Source: a virus. From it: a DNA stretch of 27,471 nucleotides. Made by a program: the position numbers and the translations under genes. Under the pieces are notes generated by a model. It did no database searches and was not told where the DNA came from. It was given only the letters and a program-made list of their open reading frames with translations. The stretch is taken from positions 1 to 27,471 of the IMG/VR virus record IMGVR_UViG_3300027969_000359. One strand, 5' to 3'. This document shows positions 3,993 to 27,471 of this stretch, one piece after another; the stretch's first letter is position 1; every line of letters starts with the position of its first letter.

Positions 3993-4601
3993 ATGGAAAA
4001 GAAATTATACATCTATATTCACATCCCAAAAACAGCAGGAATGTTCATTAAAAATTTGCTTAAAATTCACAATCAAACTTCAAAAATACACGACCCATTT
4101 ACTGATGTAACTGATTTTTCAATTCCGGTTAAAAATGCTCCTACAATTGAATTTGTTAAAAGGGCATTGCCTGCAGCAAATTCTGATCAAGTTGGATTTT
4201 TTGTAATTGTTAGAAATCCATATGATAGAGTTCATAGTTTATGGAAATGGTCCAGACAACACGGACAAGCAAATAATCCAGATTTTCCAGAAGTTCCAGA
4301 AACTTTTGAAGAGTTTGTAAAAAAATTTGGAAATGGTGATTATAAAAAATATCATTTTATGCAGTCGCAAGTTAATTATGTAAATGGAGAAGATGAAAGT
4401 AATATTAAATTATTTAAATTTGAAAATATGGAATTAGTGAAAGAATTTTTAGTAGAGTGTAATATTGGATGGAGTGATTATCAAATTAATGCCATTCCGG
4501 GTCCAAATTATAAAGATGTTTATACACCAGAAATGGTAGAAATTATAAAAACTTATTGTATGGATGAATTTGAAAGATTTGAATATTCTACTGAATTGTG
4601 A
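3993..4601 (+). CDS. Sulfotransferase family protein
   Basis: A 202-residue PAPS-dependent sulfotransferase of the Sulfotransfer_2-like type, which moves a sulfate group from PAPS to a sugar or protein hydroxyl. The 5'-phosphosulfate loop is HIPKTAG at residues 10-16, right at the N-terminus as in cytosolic or phage forms; no signal peptide or membrane segment is seen. The 3'-phosphate motif is RNPYDRVHS at residues 74-82. The end, MVEIIKTYCMDEFERFEYS, matches the usual C-terminal pattern of the family (acidic DFE-F-Y). Both cofactor motifs look intact, so activity is plausible. It is compact compared with eukaryotic members, so the acceptor-binding part is reduced. The stop overlaps the oxygenase start (GTGA). 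The substrate is unknown: host surface glycan, phage fibre or a metabolite are all possible. Confidence 0.85.
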   Translation: MEKKLYIYIHIPKTAGMFIKNLLKIHNQTSKIHDPFTDVTDFSIPVKNAPTIEFVKRALPAANSDQVGFFVIVRNPYDRVHSLWKWSRQHGQANNPDFPEVPETFEEFVKKFGNGDYKKYHFMQSQVNYVNGEDESNIKLFKFENMELVKEFLVECNIGWSDYQINAIPGPNYKDVYTPEMVEIIKTYCMDEFERFEYSTEL

Positions 4602-5149
4602 TTAAAATATTCAAAAATTTTATCACATTAGAAGAATGTAAGCAATTATCAAAAATTGCCTTAAATGGTATTGAAGAGGGGTGGATTAATTTGGGAGTTT
4701 CACGAGGAAATCATCAATATAAAAAAAGATTAACCAGTAGAATGCATATGGAGGATAAAAAATACCCCGAACTTGTAATTGATATTTCAAATAGAATTCG
4801 TGAATTTATGGGAATATCCCATAGACCATTAATTATGGGTCACGGTAGTGAAGGTGTAGTTGTCTCTGTAACTTATCCTGGAGGTGATGTTTACAGCCAT
4901 CGTGATCCAAAAGCAGAAAATGGTTGGACTACATATCGTTGCAATATAATGTCTCAAACAACAGAAGAAGGTGCAGAATTATATGTGGATGATGAGTTAG
5001 TTGATATTAATGCTGGAGATTTACACTGTTATTATGCTTCAGAACAAACTCATTATGTAACTGAAGTGAAAGGAGAAACTCCCAGAATACTTTGGATGTT
5101 TGGGGCTCATCGCCCTTATGAAGATTTTATAATGGATCATACCCCTTGA
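4598..5149 (+). CDS. 2-oxoglutarate/Fe(II)-dependent oxygenase
   Basis: A 183-residue 2OG-Fe(II) oxygenase of the prolyl-4-hydroxylase-like type, the kind often seen in T4-like cyanophages. The metal triad is readable: HRD (His101, Asp103) in YSHRDPK, and distal His152 in EQTHYV. Arg163 in TPRILWMFG is placed to bind 2-oxoglutarate. GAELYVDDELVDINAGDL is the typical strand-turn-strand between the HxD and the distal His. The start is GTG at 4598, overlapping the sulfotransferase stop by 4 bases, so the two enzymes are coupled. Expected chemistry is hydroxylation of a protein side chain or small molecule using O2 and 2OG; the substrate is unknown. Its last codons contain the -35 of the next promoter. 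Confidence 0.85.
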   Translation: MIKIFKNFITLEECKQLSKIALNGIEEGWINLGVSRGNHQYKKRLTSRMHMEDKKYPELVIDISNRIREFMGISHRPLIMGHGSEGVVVSVTYPGGDVYSHRDPKAENGWTTYRCNIMSQTTEEGAELYVDDELVDINAGDLHCYYASEQTHYVTEVKGETPRILWMFGAHRPYEDFIMDHTP

Positions 5150-11400: not shown

Positions 11401-12176
11401 CCACTACACAAGTTAGCAATTTAAATGCTTCTTCTCTGCAAAGTTATCAGCCCGTAAGTACAAACACAGCAAGCAGTATTGTGCTTCGTGATGGTTCTGG
11501 TAACTTTAGTGCTGGTACAATTAGTGCTACCAATTTAAATGGAACTCTTCAGTATAGTGTTTCTACTGGAACTTACTTGTCTGGATCATTTAATAACTCT
11601 GCATCTGCAACTATTACAATAAATGCTACAAGTGCAAATACTGCATCTACAGTAGTTGCTCGTGATGCTTCAGGTAACTTTAGTGCTGGAACTATTACTG
11701 CAACTTTAACTGGTACGGCAAGTGCTCTTGTAACTGGAAATAATTATCAAGTTAATTCCTTCGGTGTTGGAACTGCTGCTTCGGGTACTGCTGGTGAAAT
11801 TCGTGCAACAAATGATATTACCGCATTCTATTCTGATTTGAGACTGAAAGAAAATATCAGTCCAATTGCAAATGCTCTTAATAAAGTATGTTCTCTTCGT
11901 GGAGTTACATATAATGCAAATGATGTTGCTGCTTCTTTTGGTTATACAAGAGAAGAACAAGTTGGTGTCATCGCACAAGAAGTAGAAAAAGTACTTCCAC
12001 AAGTTGTGAAAGCAGCACCATTTGATATTGATGTGGATGATGACGGAAATGAATATTCCAGAAGTGGTGAAAATTACAAGACTGTTAAATATGAAAAAAT
12101 TGTACCACTTCTAATTGAAGCAATCAAAGAACTTTCGGAAAAAGTAAGGAGGTTAGAAAATGACCCTACCAAGTAG
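5427..12176 (+). CDS. Giant virion structural / tail fibre protein with S74 chaperone
   Basis: A 2249-residue structural protein. Residues 1-~90 (MPLSRLENFLKNAEG, then LYVNPSDFDATDSYENKG and LVYPGTHY) start a pectin-lyase-like beta-helix that continues to about residue 560 (ITNSNSNFGAVALESVGF). Next come several copies of a beta module with a 'HGL/HNL ... yNGsF.V ... FTY' pattern (about residues 305-350, 850-910 and 1230-1290), a GSGYGSTT-type module near 1085, and an ASGHTFEYVG segment near 1400 that recurs in the gene at 14299. The last third is fibre shaft: 30-residue repeats at 1743-1818, then DTLVGKNTSDALTNKTI and NLSGSAAISNANL. The end is a peptidase S74 domain: SDLRLK (Ser2136, Lys2141), GVIAQE and a coiled coil. 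Self-cleavage would release about 114 residues. No good Shine-Dalgarno precedes the ATG. Confidence 0.88.
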   Translation: MPLSRLENFLKNAEGNILYVNPSDFDATDSYENKGNSLARPFKSIQRALIEAARFSYQSGRNNDRIDRTTVLVYPGTHYIDNRPGFAIDTTGALKQRTGSGSGVSWASGVTINELGSAFNTDVLDANNDLYKLNSVDGGVIIPRGVSIIGYDLRKTKIRPLYVPDPLDDYINTSSIFNVTGTCYFSIFTFLDADTTKFSYKNYNNTTNFPNYSHHKLTAFAYADGVNNVKISNVDSGLTDLQMYYHKLTLVYGNSSGRPIIDYPVGLDFEPSVDEYRIVGNLNANNLGITSIRSGDGVTPSSSITVTTNATHGLFVDTPILMKGVGIDTSIYNGSFVVSGIVGLTTFTYTSLGSPTNPVPDPVTYLQDAQVVIEADSVSSASPYIFNCSIRSVYGMNGIHADGSKSTGFKSMVVAQFTGVSLQKDDNAFIDYDSTSKSFKDNSQSSNSPLHTYSGSIYKPSYENNHVKVSNGGFIQCVSIFAIGYARQFLAESGGDMSITNSNSNFGAVALESVGFRKEAFDRDNTGYITHIIPPREVITNENEVTWLSLDITKTISAATISNLYLYGYNSLDIAPPHQVDSYRIGAKQNELLNLTVTIGTAQTTYTAPVLMQSPGGSVYSAQKVSTVGRSAGINSISSDIFTLTGAHNFYNGEKVRVFSDTAEAPNNVELNKVYYISTTGSSNQVKLSPTYSDAIAATPRTINGTNNLGGILTIVSSVTDKQPGDLGHPIQFDSTNSNWYIICSNSTQDNTIYNAIVGLGTTGLGLESGSTFVKRKLDNRSLNERIYKLRYVIPKEATNARPPIAGYTLQESSTTTIDSPGVLSGDLSNSIQLKNPKVITGASYSSNVITITTELPHNLSSGDGIKIQNVLSSNNPTGSASSVFNGSFAIASVPSSKTFTISGIATDPGSFANITNQRTTSQQVAALPTVIRERYYDTYFIYRIDEIKKFIPGSSTTGQDGIYHLTVMSSGESPTLKNVGYGISYKNYNQDVRNLYPQLDRDNYNADPKATTTYADIQPLGKVTTDDKRNSVTKEALDLFVKENTIGFGITYAAVTGTAVTFYTDREHNLNAISALSLTATGSGYGSTTLYSAALVGGTGAGINATVKVSLSGGVPTDVSIVDGGSAYGVGNTMSIAGGTTLATVQVTSINNNVGDAIQIVGFASEGYNGLFKITAIPGPKQFTVYNANNVGVYTSRTDGKLPYAAITAEGSTISTLNFTNIRTGIATVTTSTSHGLLVGNKFTIVGTGKAIYDSSFVVKNVVGLTTFTFNVGVVTATQPYVSGGTVLKQGIGVNALPIGDGESNLGGRASYIYGGISVTLGSSLSPSATTINLSSPNGFKKGDFIQINSEILRILNDTCTSVIRGQFGTISAAADSGTLVKKIRIIPIQFHRPSYLRASGHTFEYVGYGPGNYSTGLPQKQTKILSSDEVIVSQAKEQDGGTIVYSGMNDLGEFYSGSKKLTSITGEEELFDAPIFTYTGDDANTDLTKRLSGYYDDIVVKERITVEGGENNNQTSQFYGPVNFTQKITNTSDNGIETKNLYVKGTSSQSKLITVGISTPTSAVISGARSGDISLISSPVSGGYVGHVYADSDWKRFGMISVEKDLDVLRLDRLGIGQTNATFPFTNELEVNGTARFKNLYVTESVTFVTPQTFSSVAFEGITIYNGAVFPGTNSVGAITTAYTQKHTQGISQLYNLEVTGTGVTFSNTANINVGSSFNSTYAGVSTFAGKLNVSSSTISALAGTAVTYTSGNITTLTGTYAYQNVGIITALAGTAVTYTSGNITTLSGTYAYQNVGIITALAGTAVTYTNATITNLNNTGISTVSTSGIDFKGTSGFTKLVASSTASGTLTLPAATDTLVGKNTSDALTNKTIAAGSNTITGLTNTNLSGSAAISNANLANSTISGVALGSNLGDLTLNTHLSYTSGSTYNGSIARVLNVDAKSTWTLGDNSASIVSRDVNGDFAARDITSRIITSNIATGTAPFVVSSTTQVSNLNASSLQSYQPVSTNTASSIVLRDGSGNFSAGTISATNLNGTLQYSVSTGTYLSGSFNNSASATITINATSANTASTVVARDASGNFSAGTITATLTGTASALVTGNNYQVNSFGVGTAASGTAGEIRATNDITAFYSDLRLKENISPIANALNKVCSLRGVTYNANDVAASFGYTREEQVGVIAQEVEKVLPQVVKAAPFDIDVDDDGNEYSRSGENYKTVKYEKIVPLLIEAIKELSEKVRRLENDPTK
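10653..10880 (+). repeat. 90-bp tandem coding repeat
   Basis: A 30-codon unit (ALAGTAVTYTSGNITTL, then GTYAYQNVGIIT) begins at 10653, 10743 and 10833, exactly 90 bases apart. The first two copies are full and differ at only a few bases; the third diverges after about 16 codons. Being a multiple of three, copy changes keep the fibre frame. Confidence 0.85.
12146..12152 (+). promoter_or_regulatory. Full Shine-Dalgarno AAGGAGG
   Basis: A perfect AAGGAGG lies 7 bases before the ATG at 12160, inside the last codons of the upstream gene. It fixes the start of the glycine-rich gene. Several neighbouring structural genes have no visible site, so this one stands out. Confidence 0.8.
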
Positions 12177-16510: not shown

Positions 16511-19500
16511 ATGACCAAATTCCTAAGCGGCAGACAAAAAAATCTAAAGATTGGTATAACTTCTTATAGTGAAAATACACAAGTATTACAAGTTATTGGT
16601 CGTGTAGGAATTGGTTCAACAGTTTTTAGTGCTGATTATGATTTAGATGTTCGTGGCACTTCAAGATTTTCTGGCAATGTAACTCTTGGTGCAAATTTAT
16701 ATCCAGACACTGATGGGTTGTATGATGTAGGTAGAGCACCTCAAATTGGATTTGGAGCAAATCGTTGGAGAGATGCCAATTTTTATGGTAAAGGTACATT
16801 TGATGGTGGTGTAGACGCACACGATCTTGAACTTGGGGTGAGTTCTGCGAATTTAATTTATAGTACATCAGGAAATCTGGAACTAAATTCGCAAAGTGGA
16901 ACGACAAATATTGATGATAATGTAACAATTTCTGGTAATATTGGAATAGGAACGGTAAATCCAAAAGCAAAACTTCATTCTTATGGATACCCTACTGTGG
17001 GTGTGGGTTCAACAGAAATTTTTGGATTTCCAGTCAATACTTTAATAGAAGTTGGAAATGGTAATTCTTGGTCAATTGCATTTAGGAGATCTGATTTAGG
17101 ACCAAAATATGATGTAGCAGAATATATTGATAATGATGGAACATTTTATTTTTCATCTGGTATAGCATCAGATACTTATTATAATAATCTTGGGATCTCT
17201 ACAAATAATTTTAAAGTTTTTACTAATAACTCTGTTTCTTTTACAGTTGATAGTAATGCAAATAGTTTGGTTTATAATAAACTTCTTGTAGGAACTACAA
17301 CATTAACAGAAACAGCAAATCAAAATCTCCAAGTTACTGGTGGTGCTTATGTTTCTGGTAATACTGGTATAGGAACCACAAATCCAACATCAAAACTTAC
17401 AGTAACTGGTGATGTAAAAGTTTCTGGAGTTGTTACTGCAACTACATTCATCGGCGCATTAACTGGTATTGCTGCTTCTGCAACTCAATTAGTTACTCCA
17501 AGAACAATTTCACTTTCTGGTGACGTTGTAGCATCCCCAGTATTCTTTGATGGTACTGGGAATGTATCATTAGCAGCGACCATTCAACCCAATAGTGTTG
17601 GTTTGGGAACTGATACAACTGGTGATTATGTTCAGTCAATATCTGGAACTTCAAATCAGATTAGTGTAAGTGCAACTTCTGGAGAAGGTTCAACACCATC
17701 ATTAAGTATTCCAAGTCAATTTACTGCACCACAAGACGTAACAGTTACAAGAGACCTCCAAATCAATCGCAATTTGAATGTTACTGGAAACATTACGATT
17801 GGTGGAACAACTGCATTCATTAATGTTCAGCAATTACAAGTTTCTGACCCAGATATTGTTTTGGGATTTAGAACTGATGCATTTGGTAATGATGTTTCTA
17901 ATGACACAACTGCAAATCATGGTGGCATTGCAATTGCATCAACCGAGGGTAGTCCATTAATTCAACTTTATAATCCTGGTATTGGTGAATCTACAGTTGC
18001 CACATACAAGAAAATTATGTGGTTCAAGTCTGGTAGTTTCACTGGACTTGGAACAGATGCTTGGTTAATTAACTATGCTGTTGGTATTGGTTCTACTCAA
18101 TTTCCAACAGGCACTCGTCTTGCTGCTGGTTCAGTTCAATTCACACAAAATGATTTAGCAGTTGTAAGAAATATTAATGCAAGTGGTGTTGGTACGATTC
18201 CAACTCTATCAGGAACTACAGTAACTTATGCAACTGGTAATTTCACTACTGGTTATATCAATACTGGTATTGTTACGACTTTAACAAGCACCAACGCAAC
18301 TTTAACAAATATCAGTTCTTCTGGTATAAGCACTCTTGGTATTACATCAGCAACAAACTTAACAGCACAGCAACTGAATGTTTCTGGTATTTCCACATTC
18401 AATAATACACTTAATGTAGTTCCAATCTCAACTGGTATTGCTGGTCTCTTCTCTGGAACCACATCAGGTGATATGGTTCGTATTACTCAACTTGGTTCTG
18501 GTAATGCTCTTGTTGTTGAAGATTCTGCAAACCCCGATGCAACTCCTTTTGTTGTTAGTGCTTCTGGTCAGGTGGGTATAGGAACCACAAATCCAACATC
18601 AGCACTTACAGTTGTTGGTAATGTTTTAGTTTCTGGTGTCTCTACTCTTGGTATCACCACCGCCACAAACTTAACAGCACAACAACTTAATGTTTCTGGC
18701 ATAACAACAGTTGGTTTCTTAACAGCAACTAATATATCCGTTTCTGGTATTGTAACTTCTAACGCATATTATATTGGAACAACCCAAGTCATTAGTTCCG
18801 CAAGACAATTACAAAATATTGCTTCTCTTGATGCTACAACAACAGCAACAATTGAAACTGCTATTCAACAGGCACCTAATGACTTCACAAGTTTAAATAT
18901 CTCTGGCATATCAACACTTCGATCTACGACTTTAATTGGTGGTGGAACTTCTACAGGAACTGTAGGACAAGTTCTTCAAGTTGCTGGTATTAACTCAAGT
19001 GTTTATATTGGTGGTAATATTGGTATTGGAACCACAAATCCAACATCTAAACTTCACGTAGTTGGTGATGTATTAATTGTTGGTATCACAACATTAGGTA
19101 TCACATCAGCAACAAACTTAACCGCACAACAGTTAAATGTTTCCGGTATCAGTACTTTAGGTATTACAAGTACCACAAACTTAACATCTCAACAACTTAA
19201 TGTTTCTGGTATAACAACATTAGGTATAATAACAGCAGGTAATATTTATTCTACAGGAGTTATTACAGCAACTTCATTTAGTGGTAATGCTTCTAGTGCT
19301 ACTTATGCAACTAATGCTGGTATAGCAACTTATGCAACTAATGCTGGAGTAAGCACTTATGCAACTATTGCTGGTTATTCTACTTCATCTGGTATTGCAA
19401 CTTATGCTACTAATGCTGGAGTAAGCACTTATGCTACTAATGCTGGAGTAAGCACTTATGCAACTATTGCTGGTTATTCTACTTCATCTGGTATTGCAAC

Positions 19501-21103
19501 TTATGCTACTAATGCTGGTATAGCAACTTATGCAACTAATGCTGGAGTAAGCACTTATGCAACTATTGCTGGTTATTCTACTTCATCTGGTATTGCAACT
19601 TATGCTACTAATGCTGGTATAGCAACTTATGCAACTAATGCTGGTATTGCTACTTATGCTACTAATGCTGGTTATTCTACTTCATCTGGTATTGCTACTT
19701 ATGCTACTAATGCTGGTATTGCTACTTATGCTACTAATGCTGGTATAGCAACTTATGCAACTATTGCTGGTTATTCTACTTCATCTGGTATTGCTACCTA
19801 TGCAACCAATGCTGGTATTGCTACCTATGCAACCAATGCTGGTATAGCAACTTATGCTACAAATGCTGGAGTAAGTACCTATGCTACTAATGCTGGTATA
19901 GCAACTTATGCAACCAATGCTGGTATTGCAACTTATGCAACTAATGCTGGTATAGCAACAAACCTTAAGGGTGGTGTTATTGGAAATATTGCTTATCAAT
20001 CTGCTGCTGATACTACAGTATTCTTAATAAATGGTGGTAGCGGAACAGTACTACAATCAAATGGTGTTGGTAATGCTCCTACTTGGGTTCCTGCTGCTCC
20101 TTCTGGTGCTGTTACTGGTTTAGTTGTTAGGGATTCCAGTAATAATATTGTTGGTACATCAGGTAGTATAAGTCAATTAACTTTTAGTTCTGGACTTTCT
20201 GTAACTGGAACAACAGGAGCAGCAGGTATCGCTACTATTACTTTATCCAGTAATATTGTAGGAACTGCATTAAGTATTTCTGATATTTCTACTTTTACTA
20301 ATGGTCCTGTATTAATTGGTGGAGGAACTTCAACAGGGACTGCAGGTCAAGTTCTTCAAGTTACTGGTATTAACTCAAGTGTTTATATTGGCGGTAATAT
20401 TGGAATTGGAACCACAAATCCAACATCAAAACTTACAGTTCAGGGTGATGTATTAGTTTCTGGTGTTGTAACTGCAACTGCATTCTATGGTTCTGGGGCA
20501 TTCCTTACCAATATTCCATCATCATCAAATCTTGTTGGTATTTCTACATTAGGATTTTTTGGTGATAATCAAAATATTACTTCAAGTACAACACTCCCAT
20601 CAAATACATTATTATATACTGTTCATAAAAATATTAATGTTGCAATTGGATCCACAATCACTATAGGTTCTGGATCTACCATCATTATGGATCGTTTGAA
20701 TAATCTTGATGATGTTGTTGCTATATCATTCAAAGGTGATGGATCACAATTGACAGGTATTCCTGTTGGTGATTTATATGAGTTAGATCAAATCTCTTCT
20801 GCTGGTGGAGAGAATACATATACTCCAACATTTAATTATGATACTGTTTCGGTCACTGATCCATTTAGATTATTAATCAGTGTAAATGGTATTATGCAAT
20901 CTGCATATGTTCATAATACTGAATATGTATTCAATAACTCACTCTTGGCATCAAGAACTGGTTATACAATTGATTATGATGGTAAAATTAAATTTACTGA
21001 AGCACTGCCGGAAGGTAGTGAAGTTATGATTAAAACAACTGCTGGTACTACAAAATCTACCACCAGAAAATATCCATTTAATGCACTTGACATTCTTTTT
21101 TAA
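16511..21103 (+). CDS. Very long tail fibre with 9-residue repeat array
   Basis: A 1530-residue fibre-like protein. The N-terminus (MTKFLSGRQKNLKIGITSYS) leads into fibre modules. A 'GNIGIGTTNPTSKLTVTGDV' unit recurs about five times (near 16936, 17353, 18570, 19009 and 20391). A 'TLGITSATNLTAQQLNVSGI' unit recurs about four times (18328-19230). Residues 930-1146 are a regular array of GIATYATNA-type nonapeptides with GYSTSS inserts. The end has SVNGIMQSAYVHNTEYVF, GYTIDYDGKIKFTEALPEGS and a final YPFNALDILF, a C-terminus I associate with cyanophage structural proteins. No S74 domain is present, so folding must rely on another helper or on the C-terminal domain. The regular repeats fit a trimeric beta-structured shaft (inference). 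It starts 9 bases after the previous gene, with no clear Shine-Dalgarno. Confidence 0.85.
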   Translation: MTKFLSGRQKNLKIGITSYSENTQVLQVIGRVGIGSTVFSADYDLDVRGTSRFSGNVTLGANLYPDTDGLYDVGRAPQIGFGANRWRDANFYGKGTFDGGVDAHDLELGVSSANLIYSTSGNLELNSQSGTTNIDDNVTISGNIGIGTVNPKAKLHSYGYPTVGVGSTEIFGFPVNTLIEVGNGNSWSIAFRRSDLGPKYDVAEYIDNDGTFYFSSGIASDTYYNNLGISTNNFKVFTNNSVSFTVDSNANSLVYNKLLVGTTTLTETANQNLQVTGGAYVSGNTGIGTTNPTSKLTVTGDVKVSGVVTATTFIGALTGIAASATQLVTPRTISLSGDVVASPVFFDGTGNVSLAATIQPNSVGLGTDTTGDYVQSISGTSNQISVSATSGEGSTPSLSIPSQFTAPQDVTVTRDLQINRNLNVTGNITIGGTTAFINVQQLQVSDPDIVLGFRTDAFGNDVSNDTTANHGGIAIASTEGSPLIQLYNPGIGESTVATYKKIMWFKSGSFTGLGTDAWLINYAVGIGSTQFPTGTRLAAGSVQFTQNDLAVVRNINASGVGTIPTLSGTTVTYATGNFTTGYINTGIVTTLTSTNATLTNISSSGISTLGITSATNLTAQQLNVSGISTFNNTLNVVPISTGIAGLFSGTTSGDMVRITQLGSGNALVVEDSANPDATPFVVSASGQVGIGTTNPTSALTVVGNVLVSGVSTLGITTATNLTAQQLNVSGITTVGFLTATNISVSGIVTSNAYYIGTTQVISSARQLQNIASLDATTTATIETAIQQAPNDFTSLNISGISTLRSTTLIGGGTSTGTVGQVLQVAGINSSVYIGGNIGIGTTNPTSKLHVVGDVLIVGITTLGITSATNLTAQQLNVSGISTLGITSTTNLTSQQLNVSGITTLGIITAGNIYSTGVITATSFSGNASSATYATNAGIATYATNAGVSTYATIAGYSTSSGIATYATNAGVSTYATNAGVSTYATIAGYSTSSGIATYATNAGIATYATNAGVSTYATIAGYSTSSGIATYATNAGIATYATNAGIATYATNAGYSTSSGIATYATNAGIATYATNAGIATYATIAGYSTSSGIATYATNAGIATYATNAGIATYATNAGVSTYATNAGIATYATNAGIATYATNAGIATNLKGGVIGNIAYQSAADTTVFLINGGSGTVLQSNGVGNAPTWVPAAPSGAVTGLVVRDSSNNIVGTSGSISQLTFSSGLSVTGTTGAAGIATITLSSNIVGTALSISDISTFTNGPVLIGGGTSTGTAGQVLQVTGINSSVYIGGNIGIGTTNPTSKLTVQGDVLVSGVVTATAFYGSGAFLTNIPSSSNLVGISTLGFFGDNQNITSSTTLPSNTLLYTVHKNINVAIGSTITIGSGSTIIMDRLNNLDDVVAISFKGDGSQLTGIPVGDLYELDQISSAGGENTYTPTFNYDTVSVTDPFRLLISVNGIMQSAYVHNTEYVFNNSLLASRTGYTIDYDGKIKFTEALPEGSEVMIKTTAGTTKSTTRKYPFNALDILF
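19298..19948 (+). repeat. Nonapeptide (27-bp) repeat array with 99-bp superrepeat
   Basis: The array holds one leading 7-codon partial and 20 complete 9-codon units of the form G-I/V-A/S-T-Y-A-T-N/I-A. Five 6-codon inserts reading GYSTSS begin at 19373, 19472, 19571, 19670 and 19769, exactly 99 bases apart. Each superrepeat is one insert plus three nonapeptides. The last stretch (19787-19948) has six nonapeptides without an insert. Synonymous codons vary between copies (GCA/GCT, ACT/ACC). Confidence 0.95.
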
Positions 21104-24229: not shown

Positions 24230-24925
24230 ATGGGTCTCAATCAACCAAGATTAAATCCAAATATTGCATTAACTATTGGCGCATTAAACGCCAATAATTC
24301 TACTGGCACTACTGGACAGTATCTGGAGTCAACTGGAACTGGAACCCGATGGACAACAGTTGATGTGAGTACTCTACGTTCTCCTACAATTACTGGAACC
24401 ATTACACTCTCAAATGGTGTTGGTACTAATGGTCAAGCATTAGTTTCAACTGTAACTGGAGTTCAATGGGGATCTGCTGGTGCTACATTAACTAATGATA
24501 TTACAACAAACACAACGTATTATCCAACACTTTCAAGTGCAACTTCTGGGTCTTATACAACTGCCTATGTTTCAAGCACAAAATTAACTTTTAATCCATC
24601 AACAGGTAATTTTGGAGCAACTCAATTTACATCATTATCAGATAAGACTCTAAAAACAAATATAAGACCTATTGAAGATTCTATTGCTCTTCTTCAAAAA
24701 CTTCGTGGTGTAAGATTTGATTGGTTAGAGAACAACAAACCCTCTCTTGGTTTGATTGCTCAAGAAGCTGAAGAAGTTACACCAGAAATGGTAGAAACTA
24801 ATGAAAATGGAATCAAATCAGTTTCATATTCTAATATGATCGGAATATTAGTCGAAGCAATTAAAGAACAGCAGAATCAAATAGAAGAATTAAAATCTGA
24901 AATAAATATCTTAAAGAATAAATAA
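24230..24925 (+). CDS. Short tail fibre with S74 chaperone (paralog 1)
   Basis: A 231-residue fibre-tip protein. The first ~85 residues are fibre-like (LNPNIALTIGALNANNSTG, then STLRSPTITGTITLSNGVGT). The middle has YYPTLSSATSG and VSSTKLTFNPSTGNFGATQF. The C-terminal part is a peptidase S74 domain: SDKTLK gives the likely Ser137 and Lys142, followed by VRFDWLENNKPSLGLIAQE and a coiled coil (QQNQIEELKSEINILKNK). Self-cleavage would leave a mature N-terminal piece of only about 136 residues, short for a fibre, so it may act as a tip or adaptor. Shine-Dalgarno AGAGGA (24219-24224) lies 5 bases before the ATG. It is followed by a paralog 21 bases downstream, so the pair looks like a gene duplication. 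Confidence 0.87.
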   Translation: MGLNQPRLNPNIALTIGALNANNSTGTTGQYLESTGTGTRWTTVDVSTLRSPTITGTITLSNGVGTNGQALVSTVTGVQWGSAGATLTNDITTNTTYYPTLSSATSGSYTTAYVSSTKLTFNPSTGNFGATQFTSLSDKTLKTNIRPIEDSIALLQKLRGVRFDWLENNKPSLGLIAQEAEEVTPEMVETNENGIKSVSYSNMIGILVEAIKEQQNQIEELKSEINILKNK

Positions 24926-24946: not shown

Positions 24947-25672
24947 ATGTCTGAACTTAGAGTAGATAGAGTTATAAACAATGCAGGAACAGGTTCTCCT
25001 ACGTTCACTTATGGAATTACTGTCCCAAGTGGTCAAGTTCTTTCTGGTATTGCACAAACTGCACAAACACTACTTTCTACTTCAAGTATTAATACTACGG
25101 GTATTATTACTGCAAGTAGTTTTTCTGGATCACTTGCAGCATCTAATTTAACTGGAACAGTTCCTACAGTAAGATTAGCAAGTGGAACTGCTGATGGTAC
25201 AACTTTTTTGAGAGGTGATTCTACTTGGGCAACATCTGCGGTTACTATTACTGATGATACTTCAACAAATGCAACTAGATATCCAACATTTATTTCTAAC
25301 ACATCAGGTACTTTAAGTGCAGCAAACGTATCATCAACCAAACTTTATTTTAATCCATCAACTGGAGTATTAAACGCAACGACTTTCACCTCACTGTCTG
25401 ATAGAAATAAGAAAACAAATATACGACCTATTGAGAATTCTGTTGCTCTTGTGCAAAGACTTCAAGGAGTTAGATTTGATTGGATAGAAAACAATAAACC
25501 TTCTCTTGGATTGATTGCTCAAGAAGTTGAAGAAGTGATTCCAGAACTTGTAGAGACAGGTGCTGATGGGACAAAGACTTTATCTTACGGAAATATCATT
25601 GGAGTACTCATTGAGGCAATCAAAGAACAGCAAATTAGAATTGAAGAACTGGAAAATAAATTAAATGCCTAA
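24947..25672 (+). CDS. Short tail fibre with S74 chaperone (paralog 2)
   Basis: A 241-residue paralog of the preceding gene. The second halves align well: RYPTFISNTSG, VSSTKLYFNPSTGVLNATTF, then SDRNKK with likely Ser151 and Lys156, VRFDWIENNKPSLGLIAQEV and a coiled coil. The N-terminal ~100 residues differ (ELRVDRVINNAGTGSPTFTY, GTADGTTFLRGDSTWATS), so the variable part is the mature fibre and the conserved part is the chaperone. This is the usual pattern when phages swap tips while keeping the folding domain. The gene overlaps the next one (RCC1 protein) by 8 bases, which suggests the RCC1 protein is made together with this fibre and may bind to it. Confidence 0.87.
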   Translation: MSELRVDRVINNAGTGSPTFTYGITVPSGQVLSGIAQTAQTLLSTSSINTTGIITASSFSGSLAASNLTGTVPTVRLASGTADGTTFLRGDSTWATSAVTITDDTSTNATRYPTFISNTSGTLSAANVSSTKLYFNPSTGVLNATTFTSLSDRNKKTNIRPIENSVALVQRLQGVRFDWIENNKPSLGLIAQEVEEVIPELVETGADGTKTLSYGNIIGVLIEAIKEQQIRIEELENKLNA

Positions 25673-26234
25673 TCAGTATTTTAGTCCTGAAGGAGATTTG
25701 GAGAATTATTTTGTAAGTGAGTATTGGTTAATTGACCAGTATATTGGTGATACTTTATGGACTTGGGGATATAATAGTAGTGGACAACTAGGAGACAATA
25801 CAACAACCGATAGATCCACTCCAGTCACCACATTTGCAGGAGGAACCAACTGGAAACAAGTTGCTGGTGGAGGTTTTCATACAGCAGCAATCAAGACTGA
25901 TGGAACCTTATGGACTTGGGGACGTAATAATTTTGGATCACTAGGAGACAATACAGCACCCAATAGATCCACTCCAGTCACCACATTTGCAGGAGGAACC
26001 AACTGGAAACAAGTTTCTAGTGGAGGTCTTCAGACAGCAGCAATCAAGACCGATGGAACCTTATGGACTTGGGGATATAATGGTGGTGGAGCACTAGGAG
26101 ACAATACAGCAGTCAATAGATCCACTCCAGTCACTACATTTGCAGGAGGAACCAACTGGAAACAAGTTTCTAGTGGATTTAATCATACAGCAGCAGTAAC
26201 ATCAGGAACTGATCCTACATACTTCATAGCATAA
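25665..26234 (+). CDS. RCC1-repeat protein, probable fibre-associated adhesin
   Basis: A 189-residue protein. Residues 1-30 (PEGDLENYFVSEYWLIDQYI) are an N-terminal module shared with the gene at 26898. Then come three RCC1-type repeats of 51 residues (LWTWG.N..G.LGDNT, RSTPVTTFAGGTNWKQV, then AAIKTDG), beginning at 25755, 25908 and 26061. RCC1 repeats form beta-propeller blades; classical members have about seven, so three is short for a closed propeller from one chain. Conserved frameworks with changing residues after WG and LGDNT suggest a binding surface. The last repeat ends in AAVTSGTDPTYFIA. The start overlaps the S74 fibre stop by 8 bases. Role in host contact is inferred; no RCC1-type exchange-factor role is implied. 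Confidence 0.82.
   Translation: MPNQYFSPEGDLENYFVSEYWLIDQYIGDTLWTWGYNSSGQLGDNTTTDRSTPVTTFAGGTNWKQVAGGGFHTAAIKTDGTLWTWGRNNFGSLGDNTAPNRSTPVTTFAGGTNWKQVSSGGLQTAAIKTDGTLWTWGYNGGGALGDNTAVNRSTPVTTFAGGTNWKQVSSGFNHTAAVTSGTDPTYFIA
25755..26213 (+). repeat. 153-bp RCC1 DNA repeats, first array
   Basis: Three consecutive 153-base units with long identical stretches. Bases 25911-25981 recur exactly at 27015-27085 in the second RCC1 gene. Confidence 0.93.
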
Positions 26235-26237
26235 ATA
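26231..26237 (+). promoter_or_regulatory. Weak T4-type late promoter box ATAAATA
   Basis: ATAAATA overlaps the stop of the first RCC1 gene and is only 12 bases before the ATG at 26249. Such spacing would give a leader of about 6 bases, so this may be chance in AT-rich DNA. Confidence 0.25.
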
Positions 26238-26248
26238 TTTCAAAAACT

Positions 26249-26911
26249 ATGTACGCACTTATTAACGGTCAAGAATTACTATTAGGACCTATTGGTTTTA
26301 ATGTTAGAATGATTAATTCTGAACTAGAAGAACTTGAACTTCCCGAAAGATTTAGAGTTTCTTCTTCTGATTATCAGAATGTTCCTTTATCAATCACTGA
26401 TGACGTAAAAATTATTCCTGCAAGAAATCAGTATCCAGAATTTGATTCAAAGTATGAGTATCTTTATGGTCCTGTTCACGAAATTAAAGAAGATGAAGTA
26501 GTCTTTAATTATTGGAAAGCAGATAGAACTTTAGAAGATATTAAAGCAGTATATAAGTTACAAGTAAAACCTGAAAGACAACGCAGAGAAAATACATCAA
26601 TTAAAGTTACTGTAAATGGTACTGAAATTGAAGTTTCTACTGATAGAGAAAATCGTTTAGCACTCGTATCAAAAGTAGTTTCAGGTGAAGGTTCATTTAA
26701 CTTTAAGTTTGATAATAGTGTATGGGTAGAAGTATCTAAAGTAGATCTTCAAACTATTATTTCTGCAATTGATGCAAAAGTTCAAGAAGCATATGATTGG
26801 GAACTTGCAAAACTTCAAGAGATTGATACCTGTGAAACCAAAGAAGCAGTTTATGAAGTTGAAATCACTCCTCCAGTTGTAAATCCAGTAACTCCAAATG
26901 CCCAATATTAA
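26249..26911 (+). CDS. DUF4376-like probable tail fibre assembly protein
   Basis: A 220-residue soluble protein. The C-terminal half (PERQRRENTSIKVTVNGTEI, then STDRENRLALVSKVV and WVEVSKVDLQTIISAIDAKV) has the layout of the DUF4376 family: a short beta part with a test of sequence-specific residues, then a long helix ending QEAYDWELAKLQEIDTCETK. In phages this domain is found in proteins next to tail fibre genes and is linked to fibre assembly. The N-terminal half (MYALINGQELLLGPIGFNVR, FDSKYEYLYGP) is less familiar. It lies between two RCC1 genes and its stop overlaps the next start by 14 bases, so it may help fold or attach the RCC1 proteins. Family assignment is from pattern only. Confidence 0.72.
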   Translation: MYALINGQELLLGPIGFNVRMINSELEELELPERFRVSSSDYQNVPLSITDDVKIIPARNQYPEFDSKYEYLYGPVHEIKEDEVVFNYWKADRTLEDIKAVYKLQVKPERQRRENTSIKVTVNGTEIEVSTDRENRLALVSKVVSGEGSFNFKFDNSVWVEVSKVDLQTIISAIDAKVQEAYDWELAKLQEIDTCETKEAVYEVEITPPVVNPVTPNAQY

Positions 26912-27471
26912 TCTCACAGGGTCTGATGGTGATTTAGGTAATCGTTTTATTAGCAAAGAATACTTGATGTCTGTGTATCCACAGATTGCTGGTCAATTAA
27001 TCACCCCAGAACTTTGGACTTGGGGACGTAATAATTTTGGATCACTAGGAGACAATACAGCACCCAATAGATCCACTCCAGTCACAACATTCGCAGGAGG
27101 AACCAACTGGAAACAAGTTTCTTGTGGAAGAGATCATACAGCAGCAATCAAGACTGATGGAACCTTATGGACTTGGGGTAGTAATTCTTATGGAGCACTA
27201 GGAGACAATACAATAATCAATAGATCCACTCCAGTCACAACATTCGCAGGAGGAACCAACTGGAAACAAGTTGCTAGTGGAGGTTATCATAATGCAGCAA
27301 TCAAGACTGATGGAACCTTATGGACTTGGGGTCGTAATAATAATGGACAACTAGGAGACAATACATCAGGAACCAATAGATCCACTCCAGTCACAACATT
27401 CGCAGGAGGAACCAACTGGAAACAAATTGCTAGTGGAGGTTATCATAATGCAGCAATCAAGACTGATGGAA
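26898..27471 (+). CDS. RCC1-repeat protein, second copy (3' partial)
   Basis: An open frame from the ATG at 26898 to the window end (191 codons, no stop yet). The N-terminus (SDGDLGNRFISKEYLMSVYP) is related to that of the gene at 25665 (GDL..-F.S..-L pattern). RCC1-type repeats begin at 27012, 27165 and 27318; the third has one extra residue in the loop after LGDNT. The protein is probably longer than its neighbour, so it could form a fuller propeller. It starts inside the end of the DUF4376-like gene (14-base overlap), which implies coupled translation. Role as in the gene at 25665: probable fibre-associated receptor-contact protein, inferred from context. Confidence 0.8.
   Translation, partial: MPNINLTGSDGDLGNRFISKEYLMSVYPQIAGQLITPELWTWGRNNFGSLGDNTAPNRSTPVTTFAGGTNWKQVSCGRDHTAAIKTDGTLWTWGSNSYGALGDNTIINRSTPVTTFAGGTNWKQVASGGYHNAAIKTDGTLWTWGRNNNGQLGDNTSGTNRSTPVTTFAGGTNWKQIASGGYHNAAIKTDG
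27012..27471 (+). repeat. 153-bp RCC1 DNA repeats, second array
   Basis: Units start at 27012, 27165 and 27318 and continue past the window. They share near-identical DNA with the array at 25755-26213. Confidence 0.92.

Follow-up and report, generated by a model that had tools for sequence, protein, structure and literature searches.

Fast-changing loops in RCC1-type propellers encoded beside the tail-fibre genes of a T4-like cyanophage

Introduction

At the 3' end of IMG/VR virus record IMGVR_UViG_3300027969_000359, RCC1 modules follow one another with an almost constant framework and loops rich in replacement changes. The locus raises the question of what alters the loops while the framework stays the same, and what such proteins do for a phage. 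The sequence-only reading of this DNA named diversifying selection, shuffling of modules, and adenine-directed mutagenesis from an AAT-like template, as in diversity-generating retroelements (DGRs), as possible sources. The whole record, 27,471 bases in length, was analysed and is called the window below. Diversifying selection and exchange between modules explain the diversity. The reading preferred here, with a probability of about 0.6, is that the genes encode seven-bladed RCC1 propellers which act as tail-borne, host-binding adhesins and whose loops are diversified by selection and recombination.

Gene layout and features

The window is a contig of a T4-like cyanophage. The nearest named relative is Synechococcus phage S-SRM01 (Kyanoviridae), and window proteins match tail-fibre, baseplate and virion-structural families of phages. 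The 3' end reads two Peptidase_S74 tail-fibre-type genes, RCC1 gene A, a DUF4376 gene and the cut RCC1 gene B (Table 1); the order in S-SRM01 is the same (tail fibre, RCC1, hypothetical, RCC1), with a third RCC1 gene farther along. The gene A product is 75% identical to its S-SRM01 orthologue over the match, and the DUF4376 protein is 63% identical to the S-SRM01 hypothetical protein. The PF00415 (RCC1) cut-off is passed by 6/6 modules of the window. The RCC1 proteins of the window match phrog_7220, phrog_4219 and phrog_16766, as does gp344 of S-SRM01. The leaders (the first 30-40 residues) were compared with a phage collection to see whether they are fused to other tail proteins; the sole matches were RCC1 genes of S-SRM01, and a role of the leaders in docking to the virion would be hypothetical. 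The six modules had been placed at 25755-27471; they do lie there, each 153 bp long and the last with one codon more, but not as a single array, since modules 1-3 belong to gene A and modules 4-6 to gene B, with the DUF4376 gene between them.

Table 1. Features at the 3' end of the window
Feature	Position	Strand	Evidence and remarks
Tail-fibre-type protein with C-terminal Peptidase_S74 intramolecular chaperone	24230..24925	+	PF13884 E 2.5e-14; tail PHROGs
Second tail-fibre-type protein, Peptidase_S74 at its end	24947..25672	+	PF13884 E 1.2e-15; tail PHROGs; 8-base overlap with the start of gene A
RCC1-propeller gene A, 189 aa, start and stop complete	25665..26234	+	Pfam RCC1 x3; 30-aa leader, then 3 modules as assembled, against 7 in most orthologues
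Module 1 (gene A)	25755..25907	+	Loop set A, codons 6-11 (25770-25787) and 16-21 (25800-25817); loop set B, codons 37-43 (25863-25883)
Module 2 (gene A)	25908..26060	+	Mosaic: loop set A equals that of module 4 (gene B) at the DNA level, loop set B differs
Module 3, final blade of gene A	26061..26213	+	Degenerate end
DUF4376 / tail-fibre-like protein, 220 aa, between the two RCC1 genes	26249..26911	+	PF14301 E 2.8e-7; phrog_10508 tail fiber E 2.1e-5; synteny with S-SRM01
RCC1-propeller gene B, cut by the contig end	26898..27471	+	Pfam RCC1; 38-aa leader, 3 modules visible
Module 4 (gene B)	27012..27164	+	Loop set A in common with module 2
Module 5 (gene B)	27165..27317	+	Loop set B in common with module 6
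Module 6 (gene B), cut	27318..27471	+	One extra codon in loop A

Other repeats and enzyme genes occur elsewhere in the window. A 27/99-bp tandem array of about 26 copies ('AGIATYATNAG...') lies at 19287-19959, within a 1530-aa frame (16511-21103) that has no Pfam match and probably encodes another tail-fibre-like repeat protein. A 237-bp tandem repeat of 2.6 copies (1-621) opens a 910-aa tail-fibre-like frame cut by the start of the contig. Among the tail genes, the stretch 3993-5149 holds a sulfotransferase-like gene and an adjoining 183-aa gene that may encode a 2OG-Fe(II) oxygenase; in S-SRM01, sulfotransferase, oxygenase and sugar genes are interleaved with the RCC1 genes.

Module counts and propeller fold

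A protein scan of IMG/VR yielded 67 related loci. The complete RCC1 genes of the relatives (n = 85) contain seven modules in 65 cases, 14 in five and 21 in two or three; these multiples of seven fit the seven-bladed propeller of RCC1, and the genes encode propellers of this type. The Pfam matches are to RCC1 and WD40_RLD. In L051 (13116-20546; also in L053, L054, L056 and L057) a single RCC1 frame, in which 40 modules were detected over at least 2477 aa, runs off the locus and is adjoined by a 14-module gene. The gene corresponding to gene A contains three modules in the window as assembled, five in L026 and six in the isolate S-SRM01. Three or six modules would not close a seven-bladed ring; the low number may reflect a real deletion or, for the contigs, assembly collapse.

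An AF2 model was made for a relative with seven modules (L007:10001-11206). The model is of modest confidence (pTM 0.73, mean pLDDT 65, many loops below 50) and is closest to UVR8 (TM 0.72-0.79), RCC1 1a12 (0.75) and BLIP-II. The modelled blade is a four-stranded meander made up of STPVTT, the turn AGGTN, NWKQV, loop B, HTAAIK, the turn TDG, LWTWG and loop A. Strands 165-170, 174-179 and 184-188 of the model place loops A and B together at one end of the sheet and the conserved turns (AGGTN, TDG) at the opposite end. Because the hairpins alternate ends, both variable loop sets are predicted to share one face of the propeller and the conserved turns to occupy the opposite face.

The phage BUCT-ZZ01 has the same architecture, with 14 modules, inside the gene cluster of its tail fibre protein, and the unannotated single-cell virus contig of marine virus AG-345-E08 (L102) has three RCC1 genes of about seven blades and about 390-407 aa. 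The two cases suggest that the scheme is wider than the group of the window. The framework of the marine virus is different (SSPVQIPGTTW).

Codon pattern of the modules

The constant framework and the replacement-rich loops noted from the sequence are real, and the codons given as changing (6, 8, 9, 11, 17-18 and about 37-42) were correctly listed; the full set of replacement codons in the window modules is 6, 8, 9, 11, 17, 18, 19, 36-38 and 40-43, and codons 1, 5, 25 and 27 show silent changes only. The minimum numbers of changes at replacement codons are 22, 11 and 3 at positions 1, 2 and 3. Pairs of window modules differ on average in the loops by 12.92 replacement changes per 34.5 sites and 0.42 silent changes per 10.5 sites. 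In the framework the figures are 1.75 per 79.4 and 3.38 per 25.8, so that silent change is the commoner per site, and module 3, whose end is degenerate, contributes part of the replacement value.

At codons 6, 8 and 9 all 12 distinct variants end in T, as had been observed (P = 0.003 under the codon usage of the window itself). Across 34 genomes the proportion is 78% at codon 6, 86% at codon 8 and 81% at codon 9, and one window module has AGA at codon 40; the T-ending of loop codons is a strong tendency, not a rule. It can be explained without a mutator, because replacement changes gather at the first two codon positions and leave the third base as it is, and because loop glycines are mostly GGT where framework glycines are GGA.

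Selection on the loops

The ratio pN/pS was determined per codon on 633 modules from 34 related genomes, with bootstrap intervals. Ratio and interval exceed 1 at codons 3, 6, 8, 9, 16, 17, 20, 37, 38, 40, 41 and 44, and the main loop codons reach 1.4-2.9 with intervals above 1. Most of the framework is well below 1, and the turns AGGTN (codons 28-32) and TDGT (codons 48-51) have values of 0.56 or less. The loops are hypervariable and rich in aromatic residues and in Ser, Gly and Asn. In the orthologue pair L007/L055, pS is 0.142 in the loops and 0.145 in the framework, and pN is 0.262 in the loops vs 0.025 in the framework; equal pS with a ten-fold higher pN in the loops speaks for selection and not for a local mutation hot spot. 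The suggestion of diversifying selection is supported both by the per-codon ratios and by the orthologues.

Exchange between modules

Shuffling of modules, the second source proposed, is also supported. Half-module mosaics, in which one loop set is identical in DNA and the other differs in at least three codons, were counted in 30 of 6265 module pairs within genomes and 7 of 193,763 pairs between genomes, which makes them about 130 times more frequent within a genome; short-read assembly errors could create some of them. Complete genes with a multiple of seven modules alone account for 18 of 3809 pairs, both in the same gene and in different genes, with identical stretches of 32-180 bases, and several of these are located in loci found identical in 2-7 assemblies. 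In the window, loop set A is common to modules 2 and 4, which have different B sets; for modules 5 and 6 the reverse holds, with B in common and A different. The 18 modules of the isolate S-SRM01 contain no strict mosaic, where fewer than one was expected.

Replacement of tracts is seen between L017 and L024, which are identical over 17 kb save for 67 differences, all of them in parts of two RCC1 genes and in the intervening DUF4376 gene. An exact donor was not found within 17-20 kb of the same genomes, and the best donor for a tract (59 of 60 bases) is a different phage, L007. Exchange of the DUF4376 gene at 11664-11973 of the two contigs involved the kind of tract also seen at the leader of RCC1 gene B, and gene and leader may co-vary. 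Single modules are also lost: L039 equals L072 minus one blade, and L011 equals L010 minus one blade, with the joint in the framework. Between L032 and the L046-type genomes, which are about 95% identical over 8.5 kb of flank, a blade resembles its positional counterpart no more than it resembles blades elsewhere in the array; the memory of blade position is lost. A RecA-family gene is present in 4/4 genomes tested. We infer that the exchange proceeds by homologous recombination via the constant framework.

Alternative explanations

A DGR requires a reverse transcriptase, a template repeat and adenine-specific change (PMC10743442). In this case the reverse transcriptase would copy the template repeat into the RCC1 modules with A-to-N errors; the high share of NNT codons at the three loop positions, above the prediction from codon usage, the nearness of the targets to tail genes and the clustering of replacement changes all agree with it. 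The evidence nevertheless contradicts this third proposal already, and its chance of being right is close to negligible. The 27-kb window fragment has no reverse transcriptase over the cut-off of the profile PF00078 (RVT_1), as had been stated, and the same holds for all 17 contigs searched (the window and 16 related ones, up to 247 and 258 kb) and for the complete isolate genomes S-SRM01 and BUCT-ZZ01. The lone sub-threshold match to PF00078 among the 17 virus records and three named phage records, on the L055 contig, scored 14.7 bits against a cut-off of 29.6. In S-SRM01 and the 258-kb genome no template repeat or other DNA resembling an RCC1 module was found outside the RCC1 genes, where short-word BLAST gave matches of 15-59 bases at chance level. 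Loop sites with a majority of A show no higher heterozygosity than those with C, G or T; in the framework, A sites vary as little as other sites, and the AAC, AAA and CAA codons are conserved. The recently replaced tracts of L017/L024 include third-position and non-A changes. Contigs of the same phage from different metagenomes have letter-identical arrays, in up to seven assemblies, so that there is no sign of continuous hypermutation.

If a single blade had recently been amplified and its copies had diverged in the ordinary way, the loops would only be tolerant of change, and neither special exchange nor positive selection would be needed. This would fit the known behaviour of beta-propellers, which are repeatedly amplified from single blades, RCC1 and BLIP-II included, with blade number varying among near-identical paralogues (PMC9218822). 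Blades within a genome are also somewhat more alike at silent framework sites than blades of different genomes (72% vs 65%). This account is unlikely, since loop pN exceeds pS rather than approaching it, also between orthologues with equal pS, and since it leaves aside both the half-modules that agree in one loop set but not in the second and the allelic replacement of tracts. The stretch of conserved framework that separates the loops has about the length of k-mers commonly used in assembly, and the ends of the window and of many related contigs fall within RCC1 genes. The mosaics, the module losses and the three-module gene A could therefore be mostly artefacts of short-read assembly, which would leave slow divergence of the loops as the only biology. 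However, the arrays recur letter for letter in independent assemblies, mosaics remain in the complete genes with multiples of seven modules, and neither the per-codon pN/pS nor the lost memory of blade position depends on any single join, which makes it quite improbable that artefacts account for most of the pattern. The name 'regulator of chromosome condensation' and the PHROGs category would make the proteins DNA-binding or nucleoid-compacting, a role also proposed for phage phAPEC6 from the domain name. Such a role is very improbable beside tail and baseplate genes in three phages and for hypervariable, aromatic-, Ser/Gly/Asn-rich loops under diversifying selection, which are unexpected for DNA contact; the RCC1-fold relatives UVR8 and BLIP-II are likewise non-DNA binders.

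Proposed function and mechanism

Freshwater cyanobacterial viruses carry propeller proteins beside their tail-fibre genes, with a constant scaffold and, on the one face predicted from blade topology, fast-changing loops; this pattern fits a surface for the binding of variable targets. RCC1 genes adjoin tail fibre and baseplate genes in the window, S-SRM01 and BUCT-ZZ01. For the jumbo phage phAPEC6, 11 RCC1-like proteins were described, and 'DNA condensation proteins' of 30-40 kDa were detected in purified virions by mass spectrometry (PMC7247149); according to our reading of the table in that paper, the latter are the RCC1-like ones. The position in the tail module of three phages, the pattern of selection, the loops on one face and the detection in phAPEC6 virions together favour a tail-borne adhesin, and a tail-associated adhesin role is most likely.

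The tail-borne adhesin would work as follows. The strands of the blade form a framework of conserved sequence whose DNA hardly varies within a gene, whereas the loop sets at codons 6-21 and 37-43, by blade topology on one face, would be free to vary under diversifying selection. New combinations of loops would arise by ordinary homologous recombination, that is, unequal crossing-over and gene conversion, between modules that lie in one gene, in sister RCC1 genes or in co-infecting phages, with the constant framework of about 40-60 bp between loops as the sites of exchange. The phage's own RecA-like recombinase would presumably carry out the exchange, and point mutations in the loops would supply further variants. 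The protein would be carried on the virion, where the loops would bind the surface of the host. More tentatively, and with the odds somewhat against it, the genes could form a combinatorial adhesin system free of retroelements, in which several tail genes, each a bank of 7 to 40 or more blades, serve as a reservoir and half-blade loop cassettes are continually recombined via the constant framework DNA into a repertoire of binding faces.

If the adhesin reading is right, widespread phage 'chromosome condensation regulators' filed under DNA metabolism are host-recognition proteins, and the way in which cyanophage host range is read from sequence changes. It would also provide a DGR-free route to antibody-like diversity, in which constant repeats are scaffold and recombination sites at once. 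The receptors of cyanophages are poorly known, and the RCC1 loops are concrete candidates that are testable with the isolate S-SRM01 and its Synechococcus host.

Comparison with known systems

No description of RCC1 propellers as hypervariable phage binding proteins was found in the literature searched, which took in few subscription journals, and nothing was found there that joins RCC1 with DGRs or with phage receptor binding. The paper on S-SRM01 does not mention the RCC1 proteins. In papers on Ostreococcus viruses, rumen phages, polar samples and Lake Baikal, 'RCC1' is part of strain or culture-collection names and not the protein.

PHROGs files phrog_7220, phrog_4219 and phrog_16766 under DNA, RNA and nucleotide metabolism, whereas the evidence given here points to a tail-associated binding protein; the genomic context argues against that filing, which probably comes from the name alone. 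In the T-even gp38-type long tail fibre adhesins (S16/T2 class), new combinations arise by recombination between conserved motifs. These adhesins also belong to T4-type phages, and it is already known that their hypervariable segments alternate with conserved motifs and that variation of the distal loops relates to host range (PMC6851490). However, they consist of a polyglycine sandwich in one adhesin domain, where the present phages have an RCC1 propeller and several genes with 7-40 tandem blades, and their adhesin role is demonstrated where that of the RCC1 proteins is proposed. The RCC1/BLIP-II/UVR8 superfamily has the same fold and blade motif, and its amplification from near-identical blades was described in a paper that does not discuss phages (PMC9218822). 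In contrast to the amplified bacterial members, the proteins described here show codon-resolved diversifying selection in loops predicted to share one face and intragenomic exchange of loops, at a phage tail locus. DGR targets such as Mtd and the tentaclins (PMC10743442) serve phages in host recognition, as is proposed for the RCC1 proteins, and likewise combine a fixed scaffold with codons rich in replacements, many of them NNT or NNC, but for the RCC1 system no reverse transcriptase, template repeat or adenine specificity was found in the genomes searched. The proposed recombination of loop cassettes in RCC1 blades may be likened to the repeat assembly of the variable lymphocyte receptors of lampreys.
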